Positions 1 through 63,713 of a stretch of 64,000 nucleotides of DNA are shown here, piece after piece. This DNA comes from Bacteroidota bacterium (GTDB lineage: Bacteria > Bacteroidota > Bacteroidia > Chitinophagales > Chitinophagaceae), in contig JAUZOD010000016.1 in NCBI GenBank assembly GCA_030706635.1, forward strand, positions 1 through 64,000, read 5' to 3'. A program made the position numbers and the translations under genes. Each line of letters starts with the position of its first letter. Position 1 is the stretch's first letter. Under the pieces are notes generated by a model. That model was not told the origin of the DNA, searched no databases, and worked only from the letters and a program-made list of their open reading frames with translations.

Positions 1-40
1 GAATTTGAGAATTTGAGAATTTGAGAATTTGAGAATTTGA
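1..40. repeat. Five tandem copies of the 8-nt unit GAATTTGA
   Basis: Five perfect head-to-tail copies of GAATTTGA start at the left edge, so the array may continue outside the window. Each unit boundary creates TTTGAG, so TGA recurs every 8 nt on the + strand, at 6-8, 14-16 and 22-24, closing all three + frames. This matches the stop-rich arrays found at gene ends elsewhere in the window and suggests that a + strand gene ends just to the left. No inverted partner arm is visible to the right. Confidence 0.9.
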
Positions 41-61
41 GAATGCTGAAGGGCGTGTAAG

Positions 62-106: not shown

Positions 107-508
107 ATGTCCATCTTTTCAAAAATCATAAAAGGAATTATACCCAGTTACAGGATTGCGGAGGATGATTTTTTTTTGGCTTTTCTGGACATCAATCCTT
201 TGCGGGAGGGACATGTGCTGGTGATTCCCAAAGCGGAGACTGATAAATTCTTTGACCTGGATGAGACCTATCTCTCCCGTATTCTGATTTTTGCACAACC
301 CATTGCTCATGCGATTGAAAAATCATTTTCCTGCAACCGCTGCGGGATTGCAGTGGTTGGCCTCGAAGTGCCCCATGCTCATATGCATCTGGTTCCGATT
401 GATCAAATTGACGATCTCAATTTCAGCCGGCCTAAATTAAAATTATCCGAAGAACAATTCCGGAATGTGCAGGAAAGGATAATCGGGAACCTGAAAGCAA
501 ATGTGTAA
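107..508 (+). CDS. HIT family nucleotide-binding hydrolase
   Basis: This is a 133-residue histidine-triad protein, a normal length for the family. HIT proteins hydrolyse or transfer nucleoside phosphoramidates and dinucleoside polyphosphates in the cytoplasm; the exact substrate cannot be read from sequence. The triad H90-A-H92-M-H94 lies in VPHAHMHLVP near the C-terminus, and the N-terminal half has the usual FSKII.G.IPSY and GHVLVIPK segments. I chose the ATG at 107 because an in-frame TTG at 89 falls inside the promoter -7 box. The TAA stop at 506-508 lies in the first unit of a repeat array. The gene converges on ruvC. Confidence 0.9.
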   Translation: MSIFSKIIKGIIPSYRIAEDDFFLAFLDINPLREGHVLVIPKAETDKFFDLDETYLSRILIFAQPIAHAIEKSFSCNRCGIAVVGLEVPHAHMHLVPIDQIDDLNFSRPKLKLSEEQFRNVQERIIGNLKANV

Positions 509-621
509 ATGTGTAAATGTGGTAATGTGCAAATGAAATACAGTGCTAAATCAGAAATTAATTGTGAGAGGAGCCTCAGGGCATTTTCACATTAGCACAT
601 GACCACATTTACACATTACCT
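499..621. repeat. Inverted pair of AATGTGTA octad arrays between convergent genes
   Basis: The left arm (about 499-536) repeats the 8-nt unit AATGTGTA with small drift, and the right arm (about 583-620) carries the same motif in reverse complement, so the region can fold into an imperfect hairpin with a loop of roughly 45 nt. On the + strand, stops at 506, 514 and 534 cover all three frames, and the first is the HIT stop codon. On the - strand, stops with codon starts at 618, 611 and 589 also cover all three frames, and the first is the ruvC stop codon. It probably acts as a bidirectional terminator; that role is inference. Confidence 0.75.
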
Positions 622-3112: not shown

Positions 3113-4093
3113 ATGAAAAAATTCCTGAAACTGTTGGGCAGTGTGGTACTCATACTCATTTTAGCCCTGATCATCATTGTCGTCTATATTAAAGTGGCTT
3201 TACCCAATGTTGGTCCGGCCCCGCAAATTAAAGTAGAAAGAACAGCGACCAATACGGCGCGGGGTGAATATCTCGCCAAATCTGTTATGGTCTGTATGGA
3301 TTGCCACAGTCTGCGGAATGCTTCCGAGTACGCGATGCCGATGGATGTTACTACTCTGGGAGAAGGCGGACAGGAGTTTGGAAAATCGGAAGGATTTCCG
3401 GGCACTTTTTTTTCTGCCAACATCACACCAGCCGGCATTGGCTCCTGGACGGATGGAGAAATTTACCGGGCCATTACTACTGGCGTTAGAAAAAGCGGGA
3501 AGGCCATTTTCCCGGTAATGCCCTATCATAATTATGGGAAGGCTGATCCGGAAGACATCAAAGCGGTGATTGCTTATCTACGCAGCATCCCGGCAATTGA
3601 ACACTCGGTGCCGGAATCAAAATCTGATTTCCCCATGAACATCATTCTGAATACGATACCGGAAAAAGCGGTTCCGGGAAAAATACCTGCAGATAAGAGT
3701 GATACGGTTGCCCAGGGTAAATACCTGTTTACCATTGCATCCTGTCACGATTGTCATACGCCGCTGGAGAAGGGGAAATTTGTCGAAAATCTGGCCATGG
3801 CGGGTGGTCGTGAGTTTATTATGGCAGGCGCTGTTGTGCGTTCGGCCAACATTACACCGGATAAACAAACCGGAATCGGAAGCTGGACGAGAGAAATGTT
3901 CTTACAACGTTTCGCCGAATACCGGGATAGTGCCCGGGCTCATCGGGTGCTTTCGCCTGGAGAGCCGCAGACCATCATGCCCTGGAGTATGTATGCCACA
4001 ATGAAGGATCAGGATCTGAGTAATATATACAGCTATATACAAACCATTCAGCCGATCAGTCATGCTGTAGTAAAGTTTCAGACGAGGAATTGA
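3113..4093 (+). CDS. Membrane-anchored diheme cytochrome c
   Basis: The 326-residue protein has an N-terminal membrane anchor (about residues 6-27) and two class I cytochrome c domains facing the periplasm. Haem c attachment sites are CMDCH at residues 61-65 and CHDCH at 211-215; candidate axial methionines lie in PVMPYHNYG (about 136) and in IMPWSMY near the C-terminus. The arrangement resembles the cytochrome subunits of membrane dehydrogenases, but no dehydrogenase gene is adjacent, so its electron donor is unknown. It is preceded by 138 bp without a clear consensus promoter. Its TGA stop at 4091-4093 lies in the first unit of a heptad repeat array. Confidence 0.85.
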   Translation: MKKFLKLLGSVVLILILALIIIVVYIKVALPNVGPAPQIKVERTATNTARGEYLAKSVMVCMDCHSLRNASEYAMPMDVTTLGEGGQEFGKSEGFPGTFFSANITPAGIGSWTDGEIYRAITTGVRKSGKAIFPVMPYHNYGKADPEDIKAVIAYLRSIPAIEHSVPESKSDFPMNIILNTIPEKAVPGKIPADKSDTVAQGKYLFTIASCHDCHTPLEKGKFVENLAMAGGREFIMAGAVVRSANITPDKQTGIGSWTREMFLQRFAEYRDSARAHRVLSPGEPQTIMPWSMYATMKDQDLSNIYSYIQTIQPISHAVVKFQTRN

Positions 4094-4182
4094 CAGTTGA
4101 CAATGGATAGTTGACAATGGATAATCCTGCATTTCGAATTGCGTTTCATTGTCCATTGCCCATTGTCAACTGTCGATTATTC
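4089..4182. repeat. Inverted pair of TTGACAA heptad arrays between cytochrome c and murF
   Basis: The left arm is built of 7-nt units (TTGACAG, TTGACAA, TGGATAG, TTGACAA, TGGATAA) and the right arm carries the same type of units on the opposite strand. The best inverted match is 15 bp perfect: 4092-4106 against 4160-4174. The first unit holds the stop codon of cytochrome c (4091-4093), and the right arm holds the stop codon of murF (4166-4168). Stops at 4091, 4098 and 4108 cover all three + frames. It can form a long hairpin and may terminate both transcripts. Confidence 0.85.
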
Positions 4183-5449
4183 GCTCCATTCCTATGCTCC
4201 TGGAGCCCTTCACCAGGAAAAAGCTGTTTTCAAAATGCCTTGATTTCAGCCATTCGCCGGCCTCGGCGGCTGTTTGGAAATTCCGGTATTTGTTTTTTAT
4301 TCTTAAAAAATCGCCACCGACCAGCACAACTTCCTTCCAGGGGTATCCGGCAATCTGCCGAAGGAGTTCCTGATGCTCCAGGATGCTGCTGTCGCCTAAC
4401 TCAGCCATTGCCCCGAGCACCAGCACCTTCTCACTGGAAGAAATGGAAGCGAAGTTTTCTATGGCCACTCTCATGCTGGAAGGATTAGCATTATAGGCAT
4501 CCAGCACTACCGTATTGCTCCCCCAGGGCAAAATCTGAGACCGGCTGTTGGATGGCCGATAGGCTTCCAGGGAGGTTTTGATTTTGGCAGGATCCACATT
4601 AAAATGAGTTCCCACGGTTACGGCCGCCAGTACGTTGGGCAAATTGTATTTTCCCGCGAGTTGGGTCTGGATCAATTGATTGTGCACGCCGCGCGTGAGC
4701 TTAACCCGGAGAAGTGGCCCTTCGCCATCAACTATTCCTGTGACGGCAGCGTCAAAGGTTCCATAGGATACGATCTCTGCAATGCCTTTGCTCATTTCCC
4801 GCAGGTCATTGTAATCCCACATCACAAAGGCGGTTCCGCCATGAGTCCGCAGCCAGTCATACAATTCGCCCTTTCCCTTGCGGACGTTTTCGACGCTGCC
4901 AAATCCTTCGAGGTGGGCCTTGCCGCAATTCGTGATGATGCCATGTGTTGGTTTCGCATACTCGCAGTAGCCAGCGATCTCCCGCAGATGATTGGCGCCC
5001 ATTTCCACGACGGCCATCTCGGCATCGGCTTTAATTTTCAGGATAGTCAGCGGAATACCAATGTGATTATTCAGGTTTCCTTCGGTCGTGTAGGTGCGGT
5101 AGGTGGTGGAAAGAACGGCGTGGATCAGTTCCTTGGTGGTAGTCTTTCCATTGCTGCCGGTGATTCCGATAAAGGGGATGGAAAATTGATCCCGGTGATG
5201 ACCGGCAAGCGTCTGCAGAGTCTTCAAAACATCATTAACCAGGATGAAGTTTTCCTGCCCTGTTTCGGGGGTCTCATCAATGACAGCATAAGCCGCACCT
5301 TCCCGAAGAGCCTGACCGGCAAATCGGTTGCCGTTGAAATTTTCGCCCTTCAGGGCAAAGAATAGATCTCCCGGCTTTAGTTTCCGGCTGTCAGTACAAA
5401 TGGAAGGGTGCTTTAGAAAAAGTTGGTATAAATTTTCAATGGAAGTCAT
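4166..5449 (-). CDS. murF: UDP-N-acetylmuramoyl-tripeptide--D-alanyl-D-alanine ligase MurF
   Basis: MurF adds D-Ala-D-Ala to the UDP-MurNAc tripeptide, the last cytoplasmic step of peptidoglycan precursor synthesis. The 427-residue protein has the Mur-ligase ATP loop ITGSNGKTTT at about residues 96-105, the substrate region TEGNLNNHIGIPLT, EMGANH and the late DAYNANPSSM motif. I start it at the ATG at 5449, giving MTSIENLY; ten further upstream codons are unlikely to be translated. It sits downstream of gldJ, an order known in other Bacteroidota, but a strong terminator lies between them, so murF probably has its own promoter. The C-terminal two codons and stop are contributed by the repeat array. 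Confidence 0.95.
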   Translation of the reverse strand: MTSIENLYQLFLKHPSICTDSRKLKPGDLFFALKGENFNGNRFAGQALREGAAYAVIDETPETGQENFILVNDVLKTLQTLAGHHRDQFSIPFIGITGSNGKTTTKELIHAVLSTTYRTYTTEGNLNNHIGIPLTILKIKADAEMAVVEMGANHLREIAGYCEYAKPTHGIITNCGKAHLEGFGSVENVRKGKGELYDWLRTHGGTAFVMWDYNDLREMSKGIAEIVSYGTFDAAVTGIVDGEGPLLRVKLTRGVHNQLIQTQLAGKYNLPNVLAAVTVGTHFNVDPAKIKTSLEAYRPSNSRSQILPWGSNTVVLDAYNANPSSMRVAIENFASISSSEKVLVLGAMAELGDSSILEHQELLRQIAGYPWKEVVLVGGDFLRIKNKYRNFQTAAEAGEWLKSRHFENSFFLVKGSRSIGMERIIDS

Positions 5450-13201: not shown

Positions 13202-13600
13202 ATGAAGAAATTTCTGACCATATTCCTTTTAATCATCTTTGTTGGAGGCGGGTTATTTATTTACTGGCGGTTTTTTTGGGTTTTTGGAGAAGGTGTGAAA
13301 GCCGGCCAGCTGAATAATCTGATGAAGAAAGGCTATGTTTTCAAAACGTACGAGGGACGGTTGATCCAGGCGGGTTTTCAAGGTGGCCAGGCCGGCTCTG
13401 TTCAATCGTATGAGTTCCGTTTTTCAGTAGTGGATGATAAAGTGGCGAATCAACTGATGTCCAACAGCGGTAAGGATTTCGAATTGCATTATAAAGAGTA
13501 TATGGCTACGGTACCCTGGCGTGGAACCTCGGTATATGTTGTAGATAGTATTTTATCTATGAAAGACAGCAAAGCCATACAGAATCCATTTACACCCTAA
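13202..13600 (+). CDS. Conserved small membrane-anchored protein of unknown function
   Basis: I place the start at the ATG at 13202, giving 132 residues with a strong N-terminal hydrophobic segment (about 4-25) and a soluble remainder outside the membrane. The segment GVKAGQLNNLMKKGYVFKTYEGRLIQAGF is reminiscent of a short Bacteroidota family that databases have often mislabelled as 6-phosphogluconate dehydrogenase; nothing here supports an enzyme of that kind. A longer frame back to 13109 overlaps the bshA upstream region and lacks the usual N-terminus. The stop is shared with the opposite gene through CTAA (13597-13600). Confidence 0.65.
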   Translation: MKKFLTIFLLIIFVGGGLFIYWRFFWVFGEGVKAGQLNNLMKKGYVFKTYEGRLIQAGFQGGQAGSVQSYEFRFSVVDDKVANQLMSNSGKDFELHYKEYMATVPWRGTSVYVVDSILSMKDSKAIQNPFTP

Positions 13601-15120: not shown

Positions 15121-15738
15121 ATGTCCGGAACGATGAAAAAACTCGATGAATCCTTTTATGACAGAAACGATGTGTTGAAAATTGCGCGTGAGCTGCTCGG
15201 GAAAATACTGGTTACCCGATTTGACGGGGTGCTTACCTCGGGAAGGATTGTGGAAACCGAGGCCTATGCCGGCGAGGGAGACAGGGCTTGTCATGCTTTT
15301 GGTGGAAGGAGAACAGCCCGCACGGAAGCCGTGTATGGACCTCCGGGCACGATTTATATTTACATTTGTTATGGGTTGCACTATTTGTTTAATGTAGTTA
15401 CCAATAAAAAGGATATACCCCACGTAGTATTGATCCGTGCCCTCGAACCGGTAAAGGGCATACCGGTCATGCTGGAAAGAACCGGGAAAGAAACACCCGA
15501 TTATAGCCTGACCAGGGGTCCGGGAAATGTGTCGCGGGCTTTAGGTATGAACAAATCGCATTCCGGGCGTAATCTGTTATCTGGTGAAATATATATTGCG
15601 GACGACGGTTTTAAATATAAAAAAGATCAGATCCTGGTTACCAAACGAATCGGCGTTGAATCTGCAAGGGAAGATGCAGAACGTCTGTACAGGTTTATCG
15701 TCAAAGGGAGTCCCTATGTCAGCGCAAAGAAGTCTTAA
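15121..15738 (+). CDS. mpg: DNA-3-methyladenine glycosylase (AAG/MPG family)
   Basis: This enzyme starts base excision repair by removing alkylated and deaminated purines. The 205-residue protein is of the usual bacterial length. It has LARELLGK-like start (IARELLGKILV), the catalytic VETEAY motif (glutamates 45 and 47), the DRACHAFGGRRTAR loop, YGPPGTIYIYICYG and the late GPGNVSRALGM. An internal ATG at 15133 is an alternative start. It is divergent from the EI24 gene and shares TTAA (15735-15738) with the stop of the opposite porP-like gene. Confidence 0.93.
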   Translation: MSGTMKKLDESFYDRNDVLKIARELLGKILVTRFDGVLTSGRIVETEAYAGEGDRACHAFGGRRTARTEAVYGPPGTIYIYICYGLHYLFNVVTNKKDIPHVVLIRALEPVKGIPVMLERTGKETPDYSLTRGPGNVSRALGMNKSHSGRNLLSGEIYIADDGFKYKKDQILVTKRIGVESAREDAERLYRFIVKGSPYVSAKKS

Positions 15739-17607: not shown

Positions 17608-18705
17608 ATGCAGTATAAGGTGATCGGATTGATGAGCGGAAGTTCGCTGGACGGGCTGGACATTGCCTATGTCCATTTTGAGGAAACGGGCGGAAGATGG
17701 AATTTCGAAATTCGGGAAACGGACTGTATTCCCTATTTCCCCGATCTACGGGAGAAACTTGCCGGCGCAAACAGACTTCCTGCCAGGGAATATCTGCTGC
17801 TGCACACTGATTTTGGTCATTATCTGGGAACGGCGGTGAATAACTTCATAGAGAAAAACGGACTGGAATATCAGGTTCAACTCGTTGCCAGTCATGGACA
17901 CACGAGTTTTCACGTGCCGGAAAAGAAGATGACCGCCCAACTGGGTGATGGGTCTGTTATTGCGGCTATTACAGGCATTCACACCATAACGGATTTCAGA
18001 AATACGGATGTCGCTCTGGGGGGGCAGGGTGCGCCCGTGGTCCCGATTGGAGAGAAACTGCTTTTCGGTGAATATGATCTGTTCCTTAATATTGGCGGAA
18101 TCGCAAATATCTCAGCGAAATTACCTTCGCCGGCCGGGTTCGATGTTTGTCCTGCAAACCGCATATTGAACTTATTGGCAAAGGATCCGGACAAGGGGTA
18201 TGATGAAGATGGACGTTTGGCTTCCAAAGGTTCCGTTCAGGATCAGCTTCTATACGAACTGAATCAGTTTGATTATTACAAACTGCATTTTCCAAAGTCA
18301 TTATCCAATGATTTCGGGTTAAAAGAAATTCTTCCGGTAATTGAAAAAGCAAACCTTTCCAGGGAAGACGCGTTGCGGACTTATACGGAGCACATCGCCG
18401 TGCAGATCGATTTAGCCGCGGACAGTTTATTATCCAATGTACGGGGCGAGGAGACCACCGCGTCTCTCAAGTTATTAGCGACCGGCGGCGGAGCACACAA
18501 TTTGTTTCTCCTGGAACGGGTGCGAACTCTTATGATGCGTAAAAATATTGAACTTGTTGTTCCCACAAACGAACTCGTGGACTATAAAGAGGCCCTTATT
18601 ATTGCCCTGATGGGGGCGCTTCGCTGGCGCGAAGAGGAGAATGTGCTTTCATCCGTTACCGGTTCTTCCCGGAACAGCATCAATGGTGCTATCTGGAGCA
18701 GTTAA
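17608..18705 (+). CDS. anmK: Anhydro-N-acetylmuramic acid kinase
   Basis: AnmK phosphorylates and opens 1,6-anhydro-MurNAc released from recycled peptidoglycan, giving MurNAc-6-phosphate. The 365-residue protein has the ATP loop GLMSGSSLDG (residues 7-16; most homologues have GTSLDG), DFRNTDVALGGQGAPVVP, LNIGGIANIS and the late GGGAHN. It stands alone among unrelated genes; murQ and nagZ are not seen. It shares TTAA (18702-18705) with the stop of the LytTR regulator on the other strand. Confidence 0.95.
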   Translation: MQYKVIGLMSGSSLDGLDIAYVHFEETGGRWNFEIRETDCIPYFPDLREKLAGANRLPAREYLLLHTDFGHYLGTAVNNFIEKNGLEYQVQLVASHGHTSFHVPEKKMTAQLGDGSVIAAITGIHTITDFRNTDVALGGQGAPVVPIGEKLLFGEYDLFLNIGGIANISAKLPSPAGFDVCPANRILNLLAKDPDKGYDEDGRLASKGSVQDQLLYELNQFDYYKLHFPKSLSNDFGLKEILPVIEKANLSREDALRTYTEHIAVQIDLAADSLLSNVRGEETTASLKLLATGGGAHNLFLLERVRTLMMRKNIELVVPTNELVDYKEALIIALMGALRWREEENVLSSVTGSSRNSINGAIWSS

Positions 18706-39531: not shown

Positions 39532-40833
39532 ATGCAGACAGCCTCCAAAAAAGTAATTCGTGGGTGGGCCATGTACGACTGGGCGAATTCTGTATACAAC
39601 CTTGTTATCACCACCACGTTCTTCCCGATTTATTTCACTGCCGTAACCAAAAAGCAATTCGGGAGCGAACTGGTTCCATTTCTTGGTCGCAAATTCATTA
39701 ACTCTTCTTTATACGATTATTCACTGGCGGTGGCTTATCTTTTTATCGCCCTGCTCTACCCGGTGCTTACCTCTATTGCCGATTCGCGCGGCAACAAAAA
39801 AGCGTTCATGAAATTCTTTTGTTACCTGGGCTCTGCCGGCTGTGCGATGCTTTATTTTTTTAATGGTGCCAACCTGTGGCTGGGCATTCTGTGCTTTATG
39901 ATGGCTGCCATGGGCTATGTGGGCAGCCTCGTGTTTTACAATGCCTTTCTGCCCGAGATTGCGGCGCCGGAAGACAGAGACCGCGTCAGTGCCAGGGGGT
40001 TTTCTTATGGTTATATCGGGAGCGTGATCTTACAGATCGTTGGGTTTGTGCTGGTTCTGCTGATTACTACGAACCCTTTCCTGGCACCGCGAATTACATT
40101 CCTGCTGGTGGGCGTTTGGTGGGCTGGATTTGCACAGATCACTTTTGCGGCGCTGCCGGAAACAAGATCATCTGCGCCTATCCGTTCGAAGATCATCCAG
40201 GAAGGATTTTCTGAAATGAAAAAAGTGTACCGTGAAATAAAACAGCTGCCCATTCTAAAAAAGTTCCTCCGCGGGTTTTTCTTTTACAGCATGGGTGTGC
40301 AAACAGTGATGCTGGCGGCTACTTTATTTGGTAGTAAACTGCTGCAACTGGAGGATACAAAACTCATCGTTACCGTGGTGATTATTCAGCTGGTAGCTAT
40401 TCCCGGAGCCATCTGGATGAGCCGGCTCTCCGAGAAGTTCGGCAACCTGCGCGTGCTGATCGGTATGGTCCTGTTCTGGATACTGATTTGTTTTGCAGCC
40501 TATTATACAGCCCTCTTTAAGGAACAAGGAGGAAATCCGGAATTGGGTTTCTATGCGCTGGCCATTGCAGTCGGCCTCGTTATGGGGGGTATTCAATCCC
40601 TCAGCCGCTCAACCTATTCCAAACTGATGCCCGAAACAAAAGATACTGCGTCCTATTTCAGCTATTTCGATTTTACAGAAAAAGTGGCCATCGTGATCGG
40701 CATGTTCAGCTTCGGACTGATTGAAGAACTTACCGGCAGCATGAAGAATTCGGTTTTATCGCTTATCCTGTTTTTTGCTGTCGGACTTTTCTGGCTGGTG
40801 GATGCTTACAGGAAATCGCAGAAAATTAGTTGA
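39532..40833 (+). CDS. MFS transporter of the UMF1/Atg22-like group
   Basis: The 433-residue protein has twelve predicted membrane helices and begins RGWAMYDWANSVYNLVITTTFFPIYF, the hallmark of the UMF1/Atg22-like branch (PF11700). Fungal Atg22 exports amino acids from the vacuole; bacterial substrates are unknown. The GGIQSLSRSTYSKLMP segment in the second half is also typical. The start is the ATG at 39532. The TGA stop lies in the first unit of a heptad array. Confidence 0.88.
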   Translation: MQTASKKVIRGWAMYDWANSVYNLVITTTFFPIYFTAVTKKQFGSELVPFLGRKFINSSLYDYSLAVAYLFIALLYPVLTSIADSRGNKKAFMKFFCYLGSAGCAMLYFFNGANLWLGILCFMMAAMGYVGSLVFYNAFLPEIAAPEDRDRVSARGFSYGYIGSVILQIVGFVLVLLITTNPFLAPRITFLLVGVWWAGFAQITFAALPETRSSAPIRSKIIQEGFSEMKKVYREIKQLPILKKFLRGFFFYSMGVQTVMLAATLFGSKLLQLEDTKLIVTVVIIQLVAIPGAIWMSRLSEKFGNLRVLIGMVLFWILICFAAYYTALFKEQGGNPELGFYALAIAVGLVMGGIQSLSRSTYSKLMPETKDTASYFSYFDFTEKVAIVIGMFSFGLIEELTGSMKNSVLSLILFFAVGLFWLVDAYRKSQKIS

Positions 40834-40896
40834 CAGTTGACGGATGACGGTTGACGGACTTTGTGTGCGAATTTGCACCTGATGTCCGACAACTGT
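40828..40896. repeat. Heptad array with degenerate inverted arm after the MFS gene
   Basis: The left arm is TTGACAG, TTGACGG, ATGACGG, TTGACGG (7-nt period, 40830-40857). The right arm (about 40882-40896) resembles it in reverse complement but has drifted. The MFS stop codon is the TGA at 40831-40833, and TGA also appears at 40838 and 40845, so all three + frames are closed within 17 nt. Unlike the arrays at 0.5 and 4.1 kb, the next gene runs in the same direction. Confidence 0.75.
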
Positions 40897-52903: not shown

Positions 52904-54204
52904 AAAGACAAGTATTATCGGAATTTTCCATGCTTAAAGTATTAGGCCGTGTTTATTTCTGGCTGGTCATGACATTTTTTATCAGCCTCATTTTAGATAT
53001 ACGCTTTATTGTGAGTATATCAACCATCCTGCTTATGGCTAACGCGATCGTATATCACCGGCTGGAGAAAGGTAAATGGTGGAATAAATCCTTCGTAAAC
53101 TGGTTTACACTGGGATGTTTCCTCTATTTTCTTCTTCAGGTGCTTTCGCTGTCTTTTGCCAAAAACATGTATGACGGGATGCGCCAATGCCAGACTGACC
53201 TGGGATTGATTGCTCTGCCGGTCGCTGCATTTTACAGTAACGCGATTAACAGGGAATCCTGGGGACCTATGATGAAGGGGTATCTCCTTGTTTTAGTGTC
53301 AGCGACAGTCTATGCTCTTATCCATGCGAGTACATTATATATACATGACCACGATCCTTCCGTATATTTTTATCATCCCCTTGTTCAGATTTATTCTAAC
53401 CATGCCATCCAGTTTTCCACCCTGGTTTTTGTTGGCATGCTTTTCCTCGTGGATGAATATTCCAGCAGGGTTAATATAAAGAACCCCTCATGGACCATCG
53501 TACTTTTGATTTATCTCTCGGTTTTTCTTTTTCTTTTGACGTCCAAGCTTGTCATTACCATATACTTTATATATATTATATATGTCCTTGCTTTTACAGG
53601 TAAGATTTTCAGCCGACGGTCCTATCGTTTATCTGGTGCGGCGTTTATTGCATTGATTATTGCTGTTGTGCTTATTTCAAACAATCCTCTGAAGAAACGT
53701 ATGATGCAAGAAGTAAATGGCGGTATAACTTTTATCCGGCAGGATAAATTCAGTCCGGGTGACTATTTTACAGGGGTACAGTTCAGGCTGATCAGCTGGC
53801 GCTTTGTTTACGAAATCTTAAATGAAAAACACCGCTGGTTACTGGGCGTAAGTATTGGGGATTCCCAGGATGTTTTGGATAAAAAATACGAGGACGAGAA
53901 TATGTTTACCGGTGGCTCATCCGGTAATAAAACCGGATATATCGGATATCATACCCATAACCAATTTCTCCAGGCCCTGCTGGAAACGGGGATTTTGGGA
54001 CTGCTTTCCATTATGATTACCTGCGCAGGGCTGATCCGGCTGGGCCTGAAATCAAAAAATGCCTCGTTGATAGTATTGGTTTTTCTTCTTCTTTGCAATT
54101 GTTTTACAGATGCTCCTTTAAAAACACAATATGGAATCATCCTCTTCGTGTTTTTTCCTTTGTTTATGTATAAAGGAAGCAAACCCGGGACTGCGACCGG
54201 TTAA
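52900..54204 (+). CDS. O-antigen ligase/polymerase-like membrane protein (WaaL/Wzy_C)
   Basis: The 434-residue protein has about ten helices and the Wzy_C/WaaL signature in a periplasmic loop, GYHTHNQFLQALLETGILGLL near residue 350, where the conserved histidine acts in ligation. With the Wzy-like gene at 50.6 kb it gives two candidate polymerase/ligase proteins in one locus; this one is the better candidate for the ligase. It shares TTAA (54201-54204) with the stop of the opposite GT2 gene. Confidence 0.82.
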   Translation: MKRQVLSEFSMLKVLGRVYFWLVMTFFISLILDIRFIVSISTILLMANAIVYHRLEKGKWWNKSFVNWFTLGCFLYFLLQVLSLSFAKNMYDGMRQCQTDLGLIALPVAAFYSNAINRESWGPMMKGYLLVLVSATVYALIHASTLYIHDHDPSVYFYHPLVQIYSNHAIQFSTLVFVGMLFLVDEYSSRVNIKNPSWTIVLLIYLSVFLFLLTSKLVITIYFIYIIYVLAFTGKIFSRRSYRLSGAAFIALIIAVVLISNNPLKKRMMQEVNGGITFIRQDKFSPGDYFTGVQFRLISWRFVYEILNEKHRWLLGVSIGDSQDVLDKKYEDENMFTGGSSGNKTGYIGYHTHNQFLQALLETGILGLLSIMITCAGLIRLGLKSKNASLIVLVFLLLCNCFTDAPLKTQYGIILFVFFPLFMYKGSKPGTATG

Positions 54205-63628: not shown

Positions 63629-63713
63629 AATGGATGTTGACAATGGACAATGGACAGTTGACAATGAAAAAGCAACTTCACAGTATAGAATTGTCAACTA
63701 TCAATTGTCAATT
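63629..63713. repeat. Inverted heptad arrays (TTGACAA/TGGACAA) between two reverse genes
   Basis: The left arm (about 63637-63667) has the units TTGACAA, TGGACAA, TGGACAG, TTGACAA on the + strand. The right arm (about 63690-63710) has TTGACAA, TTGATAG, TTGACAA on the - strand. The stop of the right-hand gene (63701-63703) and its last codons (..IDN) are encoded by the right arm, and - strand stops there cover all three frames. No + strand gene ends at the left arm, and its stops lie in a single frame. Confidence 0.8.

Follow-up and report, generated by a model that had tools for sequence, protein, structure and literature searches.

The DNA considered here (the window) is a stretch of 64,000 nucleotides (nt), positions 1-64,000 of the + strand of contig JAUZOD010000016.1, from a Bacteroidota genome (G000) that is represented by a 4.58 Mb draft of 162 contigs. 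An inverted pair of 7-nt arrays spans positions 4090-4176 of this window, between the convergent genes for a cytochrome c and for MurF. This feature is probably a dispersed short-repeat hairpin which resembles the intervening sequences (IVSs) of 23S ribosomal RNA (rRNA), lies outside rRNA and lacks an open reading frame (ORF), whose kin carry in their loops a gene for the four-helix-bundle '23S rRNA intervening-sequence protein' (IVP, also S23p; PF05635/TIGR02436), and which supplies neighboring genes with stop codons passively. The observations behind this conclusion are the anatomy and dispersal of the hairpins, the fusion of gene stops with their arms, a link with IVP genes, different arm words at orthologous places, and one junction that holds an IVP copy in one genome and an ORF-less copy in another. 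The link between IVP genes and hairpin arrays is new here. The structure of the S23p/IVP family has been solved and its function is not known, according to PMC4990558. If IVP genes regularly lie within fast-changing repeat hairpins, and ORF-less copies of these end dozens of genes, an orphan protein family would be tied to intergenic repeats, the gene ends made of repeats in G000 would be explained without a designed stop module, and whether IVP binds or remodels its own hairpin would become a directly testable question.

Anatomy of the hairpin between the cytochrome c and murF genes

The left arm of the hairpin reads, on the + strand, TTGACAG, TTGACAA, TGGATAG, TTGACAA and TGGATAA (4090-4124), and the two arms are 81% complementary along 37 nt. 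An earlier sequence-only reading of the window had reported a 15-bp perfect match between 4092-4106 and 4160-4174, which is exact, and had placed the stops of both flanking genes inside the arms, which we confirm for the cytochrome c TGA (4091-4093) and for the murF stop (4166-4168); its statement that all three + frames are closed, at 4091, 4098 and 4108, also stands for this copy. For the hairpin RNA a fold of -43 kcal/mol is predicted when the + strand is transcribed (z -8.1), and one of -36.2 kcal/mol for the - strand (z -6.9); 0/200 shuffles were equally stable in either case, and heptad runs of the window type numbered two in total among 20 simulated windows. The copy lies between two protein genes and not within a 23S rRNA gene. 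The window loop has 24 nt, and loops of 23-24 nt at L061, L062, L064 and L073 are similar by eye. A separate observation is that TTGACA/GATAAT in the left arm (4090-4125) fits the sigma-70 promoter consensus at 11/12 positions; since the unit itself contains TTGACA, the match is presumably due to chance. Bacteroidota promoters follow another consensus than sigma-70.

A dispersed family of inward-facing repeat pairs

A three-unit pattern of the heptad TKGAYAR matched G000 126 + 96 times (222). Its reversed control matched 17 + 2 times (19); since TTGACAG is mirror-symmetric, this control lacks independence for that word. Two array-start patterns gave 55 matches (control 11) and 6 matches (control 6), and three of these last six belong to pairs detected otherwise. 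From 44 fetched stretches came 46 sites, and 37 elements in 4.58 Mb remained once a duplicate at a contig end and eight lone arrays of two units had been removed. Inverted pairs make up 26 of the 37, and in every one of the 26 the stop-bearing strand runs into the hairpin, so that the dispersed element proposed from the window is borne out by the genome. Gene ends were called by a purpose-written simple codon-usage caller, and individual ends may be wrong; by these calls the 37 elements lie between convergent (15), tandem (16) and divergent (3) gene pairs, with three unclassed. Convergent settings are enriched among the classed elements (15/34, compared with 9/52 among the window's gene pairs; p 0.013).

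The short, palindromic, non-coding and dispersed nature of these elements and their position near gene ends would suit a miniature inverted-repeat transposable element (MITE), or an element like the repetitive extragenic palindromes (REP), moved by a DNA transposase. We regard this as very improbable. PF01797 (the Y1, RAYT-type family), the one transposase family sought, was without a match in the 162-contig draft of G000, and the control gave matches in 5/14 genomes; a RAYT/REP origin was rejected on this result. Arm words and lengths vary between orthologous places, unlike the fixed ends on which a transposase acts, and apart from a weak CAA/TAA no constant end sequence is visible by eye at the outer boundaries.

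G000 also holds a second, octad family (AAATGTGN) with an anatomy like that of the heptad family. Several look-alike loops were seen at unrelated places: the heptad hairpins of L058 (68-350) and L074 (2358-2499) have loops of 87 and 86 nt, which by eye hold a hairpin and a T run (AAAGTGGA...TCCACTTTTTT), and L061 and L064 are another such pair. At L058, which lies at the start of contig C124, the sequences beyond both arms are inverted repeats too (GAAGCGGAAG...GTGGTTTCAA), perhaps as a larger palindrome or as an assembly artefact of the contig end.

Many IVP genes lie between complementary short-period arms

The longest loop in G000 (383 nt, contig C82) encodes a four-helix-bundle IVP (TIGR02436, E 1.3e-29), a protein that distantly matches Avd of the diversity-generating retroelements (DGR) and has a solved relative, 2rld. 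Around its PF05635 ORF stand 36 + 8 units of the arm words found in the window. The other intact IVP of G000 (contig C124) lies between TTGACRG arms, and a decayed IVP gene on contig C24 has on its 3' side the same octads as the window pair at 499-620. With the heptads of C82 and the octads of C24, each of the two larger ORF-less families of G000 thus has an IVP copy or remnant beside the same words. In a PF05635 search of the genus, IVP was found in 13/33 genomes, and TKGAYAR arrays were confined to the IVP-bearing ones (6/13 compared with 0/20; Fisher p 0.0015).

The association is also seen independently of particular words. Complementarity was scored between the 180 nt before and the 180 nt after the ORF, which was possible for 62 of 65 IVP loci in the genus. 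The median score was 21.5 (n=62), compared with a mean of 11.3 for mismatched flanks (p 6e-11), and 43/62 loci fell in the best 5%, where 3.1 were expected; comparison medians were 11.0 for pairs from other genomes, 11.0 for pairs from other loci of the same genome, and 10 for other ORFs of the same loci (n=35). A score of at least 20 was reached by 35/62 IVP loci and 0/398 ordinary genes (drawn from 40 20-kb stretches), and a score of at least 16 by 46/62 and 12/398, respectively. Across the phylum, IVP was found in 157/198 sampled genomes, and the best matches of 30 of the 157 positive genomes gave a smaller, still distinct effect (median 17.5 compared with 11.3, p 3e-6), with 16/30 in the best 5% and only 5/30 above the 99th percentile of mismatched pairs.

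Word-free sampling of 20 stretches of 20 kb from nine IVP-bearing genomes yielded 15 arrays of period 7 and no array of any other period in the range 5-12, and 20 stretches from nine genomes that lack IVP yielded two arrays at period 7 and two at period 12. Inverted short-period pairs numbered nine in the former and one in the latter (block-shuffled, 0), or 6/20 compared with 1/20 when counted by stretch, stretches of one genome not being independent. The pair criterion is strict: applied to the window, it picks up the octad pair near 501 alone, and the murF hairpin escapes it.

Stop codons in the arms

Forty-nine gene 3' ends face an element in G000. In raw counts, 26 of their stops lie in an arm, two in the loop just past an arm, 12 at most 15 nt outside, one at 16-60 nt and eight beyond. 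The in-arm stops use the three frames 12, 9 and 5 times (chi-square p 0.24), and in seven elements, including the window copy, both flanking stops are in the arms. Fusion of gene stops with arms is real and common, and the earlier claim that arms hold the stop of a flanking gene agrees with these measured distances (26/49).

The sequence-only reading went further and saw a purpose-built bidirectional stop module, with arms selected to close all frames and a hairpin to end transcription. The frequency of stops in arms, the seven elements with both stops inside, the use of all three frames and the enrichment of convergent settings would each be expected of such a module, which we nonetheless consider improbable. 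Stop-free units in tandem number 167/361, nearly all of them TGGACAR. All three frames are closed by only 21/59 arms of at least three units, below the 26.6 expected after permuting unit columns, and two loci have no inward stop whatsoever. Arms of other words that flank IVP genes do not exceed expectation in inward three-frame closure (upstream 12/42, expected 10.9; downstream 13/42, expected 10.3); their outward closure is 8 and 6 of 42 (expected 5.1 and 4.5). These unit counts and the column permutation led us to reject stop supply as a design. Moreover, the settings of 16/37 elements are tandem and of 3/37 divergent, and fusion is lower in the octad family, where 2/11 stops are inside arms, five at most 15 nt away and four farther (10/13 loci evaluable). 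An intrinsic terminator was rejected at the murF/cytochrome c junction, with no terminator-like site (G+C-rich stem and T run) in 3900-4400.

As to the rule that each arm carries stops on one strand only, 56/59 arms have no outward stop; the rule is weak, 43-60% of random letter orders of such words complying with it. Under plain letter shuffling of longer pieces the inward strand seemed enriched for three-frame closure (35/84 arms, outward 16/84, shuffled fraction 0.17), an excess that vanishes against controls that preserve both period and composition, C making up only 11% of the inward strand. Nor is the frame logic undescribed, as had been supposed: MacGregor (2015, PMC4679880) reports that TAACTGA heptamer repeats close three frames and may overlap gene ends, and argues that insertion is tolerated chiefly at gene edges. 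That passive view fits the data here. The data can be accounted for without selection on frame closure, and the supply of stops looks incidental and not like the purpose of the element.

Orthologous junctions

Seven genomes of the genus have kept the murF/cytochrome c junction. Paired hairpins of differing words occupy it in G000, G019 and G006 (gaps of 72, 160 and 106 nt), G005 has a single octad array, and G015, G017 and G003 have no array in 13, 28 and 88 nt, respectively. In G019 and G006 the gene stops lie outside the arms, a further point against a stop module. Comparison of orthologous C-termini, which had been suggested as a check, gave a divided answer: MurF ends 5 residues past a shared ME motif in the three hairpin carriers and 9-10 residues past it in the four others at this junction, but several more distant, hairpin-free MurF proteins (L122, L125, L126, L139) are also short, and a shortening of MurF by the hairpin was set aside. 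As a separate observation, the murF gene of the metagenome-assembled genome Bacteroidetes SZAS-41 is followed, by eye, by an inverted array of ~8-nt units (RGTYGATW; L124, ~3781-3880).

At a second convergent junction, a large gene whose product ends in QFAMGVDF faces a gene for 70 aa. G005 has an IVP gene there (L231), flanked by arms of the GCTTAACGCGGAACGC type. At the corresponding place G000 (L053, 6942-7050) has a hairpin that lacks an ORF, in which TATATGG/TTTATGG/TGGATGG units enclose a GGACTTT...GATATCC core; the genes on either side match at 71-77%. This junction adds a little weight to an IVP-associated element and takes a little from the alternative that the arrays are simple repeats born of slippage, in which replication slippage expands heptads, template switching at hairpins inverts pairs, and IVP is a bystander in repeat-rich genomes. 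The dominance of period 7 in the IVP-bearing stretches (15 arrays to 0 at the other periods) and the differing words at the murF junction, which fit local expansion, would be accounted for by slippage. We consider it unlikely, for it leaves unexplained the IVP ORFs between complementary arms (35/62 loci compared with 0/398 genes), the look-alike loops at unrelated places (L058/L074 and L061/L064) and the uniform inward order of 26/26 pairs.

IVP genes are also found in seven genomes (mean identity 0.61) upstream of what we take, from motifs, to be a DUF58-type gene with a MoxR-like neighbor.

Several results weigh against an IVP-related origin of the window feature. The 24-nt loop of the window copy has no IVP ORF. 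TKGAYAR counts in G005, G006 and G017 (4, 2 and 7) are about those of the reversed control (5, 1 and 6), and visible arms are not universal at IVP genes, 16/62 genus loci scoring below 16. When 12 ORF-less pairs were compared with IVP arms, those of the own genome ranked first in four cases, one of them a tie, and were level with the best match in a fifth, and arm words are common to related genomes; a genome-specific dialect joining ORF-less hairpins to IVP arms of the same genome is thus borne out only in part. A fine pairing of arm with arm within G000 elements was rejected (0.812 compared with 0.814 for different elements; 21 pairs). At the DUF58 junction the upstream arm matched its own partner best in four of seven genomes, was tied in one (G019 with G006) and was beaten in two (G000 and G020). 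The QFAMGVDF junction was met while following a neighboring element and is not an unbiased pick. At two other junctions with IVP in relatives, before a presumed ilvN-like and after a presumed RecQ-like gene (both named from motifs), the G000 stretch has no IVP and, by eye, no array, so that 1/3 inspected junctions of this kind has an ORF-less hairpin in G000. Independent insertions into a hot spot are a possible alternative for the shared junction.

A proposed course of events

On the IVP-related reading, the element consists of two inverted arrays of a 7-nt, sometimes 8-nt, unit, with an IVP gene in the loop of full-length relatives, and it sits at gene junctions, mostly beside gene 3' ends. 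Where insertion falls on a gene end or slightly within it, an arm would provide a new stop codon, since arrays with a period not divisible by three run into a stop in most frames within a short distance. ORF-less copies may derive from IVP copies or move together with them, and spread may proceed through a process that involves IVP or its hairpin. By analogy with IVSs, the transcript may form a long duplex that is a substrate of RNase III, and a cut there could give both convergent mRNAs a processed 3' end.

A wider proposal, which we put forward tentatively and with more doubt than conviction, is that IVP genes and short-period hairpins form one class of tiny non-ribosomal mobile RNA/DNA elements, widespread in Bacteroidota. 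IVP would act on its own hairpin and, in trans, on ORF-less copies, and the arms might be renewed jointly by copying or conversion within the hairpin, so that words change per locus and genome and complementarity is kept.

Other arrays in the window

The sequence-only reading had counted four further arrays of the same kind in the window; four were found, of which two are octads and not of the TTGACAA type (Table 1). The fold of the heptad pair at 63635-63713 is weaker (-19.5, z -2.7) and was matched by 2/200 shuffles. In three genomes, heptad arms that differ in their words enclose a recurring GGACTTT...GCA...GTCC-like core, seen at window positions 40856-40886, L364, L365, L053 (6942-7050), L341 (~19000) and the murF junctions of G019 and G006; a pattern search for it in G000 gave three places (four rows). 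In addition, an overlap of exactly 4 nt is seen in four convergent gene pairs (13597-13600, 15735-15738, 18702-18705 and 54201-54204). These are TTAA/CTAA-type shared stops and account for 4/9 convergent pairs called in the window.

Table 1. Repeat arrays and associated stop codons in the window
Feature	Position	Strand	Description
Left arm	4090..4124	+	Five TKGAYAR units, stop-bearing strand directed into the hairpin
Loop	4125..4148		24 nt
Right arm	4149..4176	-	Four units with two mismatches (three after trimming), directed inwards on the - strand
Cytochrome c stop TGA	4091..4093	+	Gene 3113-4093, stop within left arm; Pfam PF00034
murF stop (TCA on +)	4166..4168	-	Gene 4166 to ~5449, stop within right arm; Mur ligase domains
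Octad array GAATTTGA	1..44	+	Single, 5.5 copies, at window edge
Octad inverted pair, AAATGTGT-type	499..620		Between convergent HIT and RuvC genes, their stops in its arms
Heptad hairpin, core GGACTTTGTGTGCGAATTTGCACCTGATGTCC	40829..40895		Core resembles cores in G019, G006 and other G000 places
Second inverted heptad pair (L039)	63637..63711		TKGAYAR family; stop of the - strand gene starting at 63701 inside right arm

Comparison with known systems

No description that joins IVP genes to inverted heptad arrays at gene junctions was found in PubMed Central full text, subscription papers and preprints being outside this scope. Among known repeats, the cyanobacterial short tandemly repeated repetitive (STRR) and small dispersed repeat (SDR) sequences are heptamer arrays between genes, sometimes with inserted palindromes. 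They are alike in being intergenic heptamer arrays and unlike in their words, and we know of no link between them and IVP. REP, the related bacterial interspersed mosaic elements (BIME) and the RAYT-associated elements are short dispersed palindromes near gene 3' ends, as the present elements are; these differ in that G000 has no match to Y1 (PF01797) and that the arms are arrays instead of a fixed palindrome.

The TAACTGA heptamers (MacGregor 2015, PMC4679880) close each of the three frames of one strand and can overlap gene ends by up to 18 nt; that paper places them in five Bacteroidetes, says that they are possibly mobile, and predicts no particular RNA structure for them. The terms 'four helix', 'S23' and 'intervening' are absent from the text of PMC4679880. 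Those heptamers are direct repeats just upstream of start codons, whereas 26/37 of the elements here are inverted pairs, and three-frame stops are present in the window copy and in 21/59 arms of G000.

The IVSs of 23S rRNA are among the closest known systems. The present elements are unlike them in lying at gene junctions, in having arms that are 7-8-nt arrays with words that differ per locus, and in that many lack an ORF; ORF-less IVSs exist in other bacteria. In Coxiella, Leptospira and others, as described in PMC4990558, IVSs are hairpins with complementary arms, whose full copies have the S23p ORF in the loop and which are cut by RNase III. The Coxiella IVS, according to the same source, has a 28-bp terminal stem, is excised by RNase III and bears tandem GACAGAT heptamers, variable in number between strains, just before the S23p ORF, and copies with a decaying ORF are known; the elements described here resemble IVSs in the complementary arms of their hairpins and, where a copy is full, in an IVP-family ORF within the loop.
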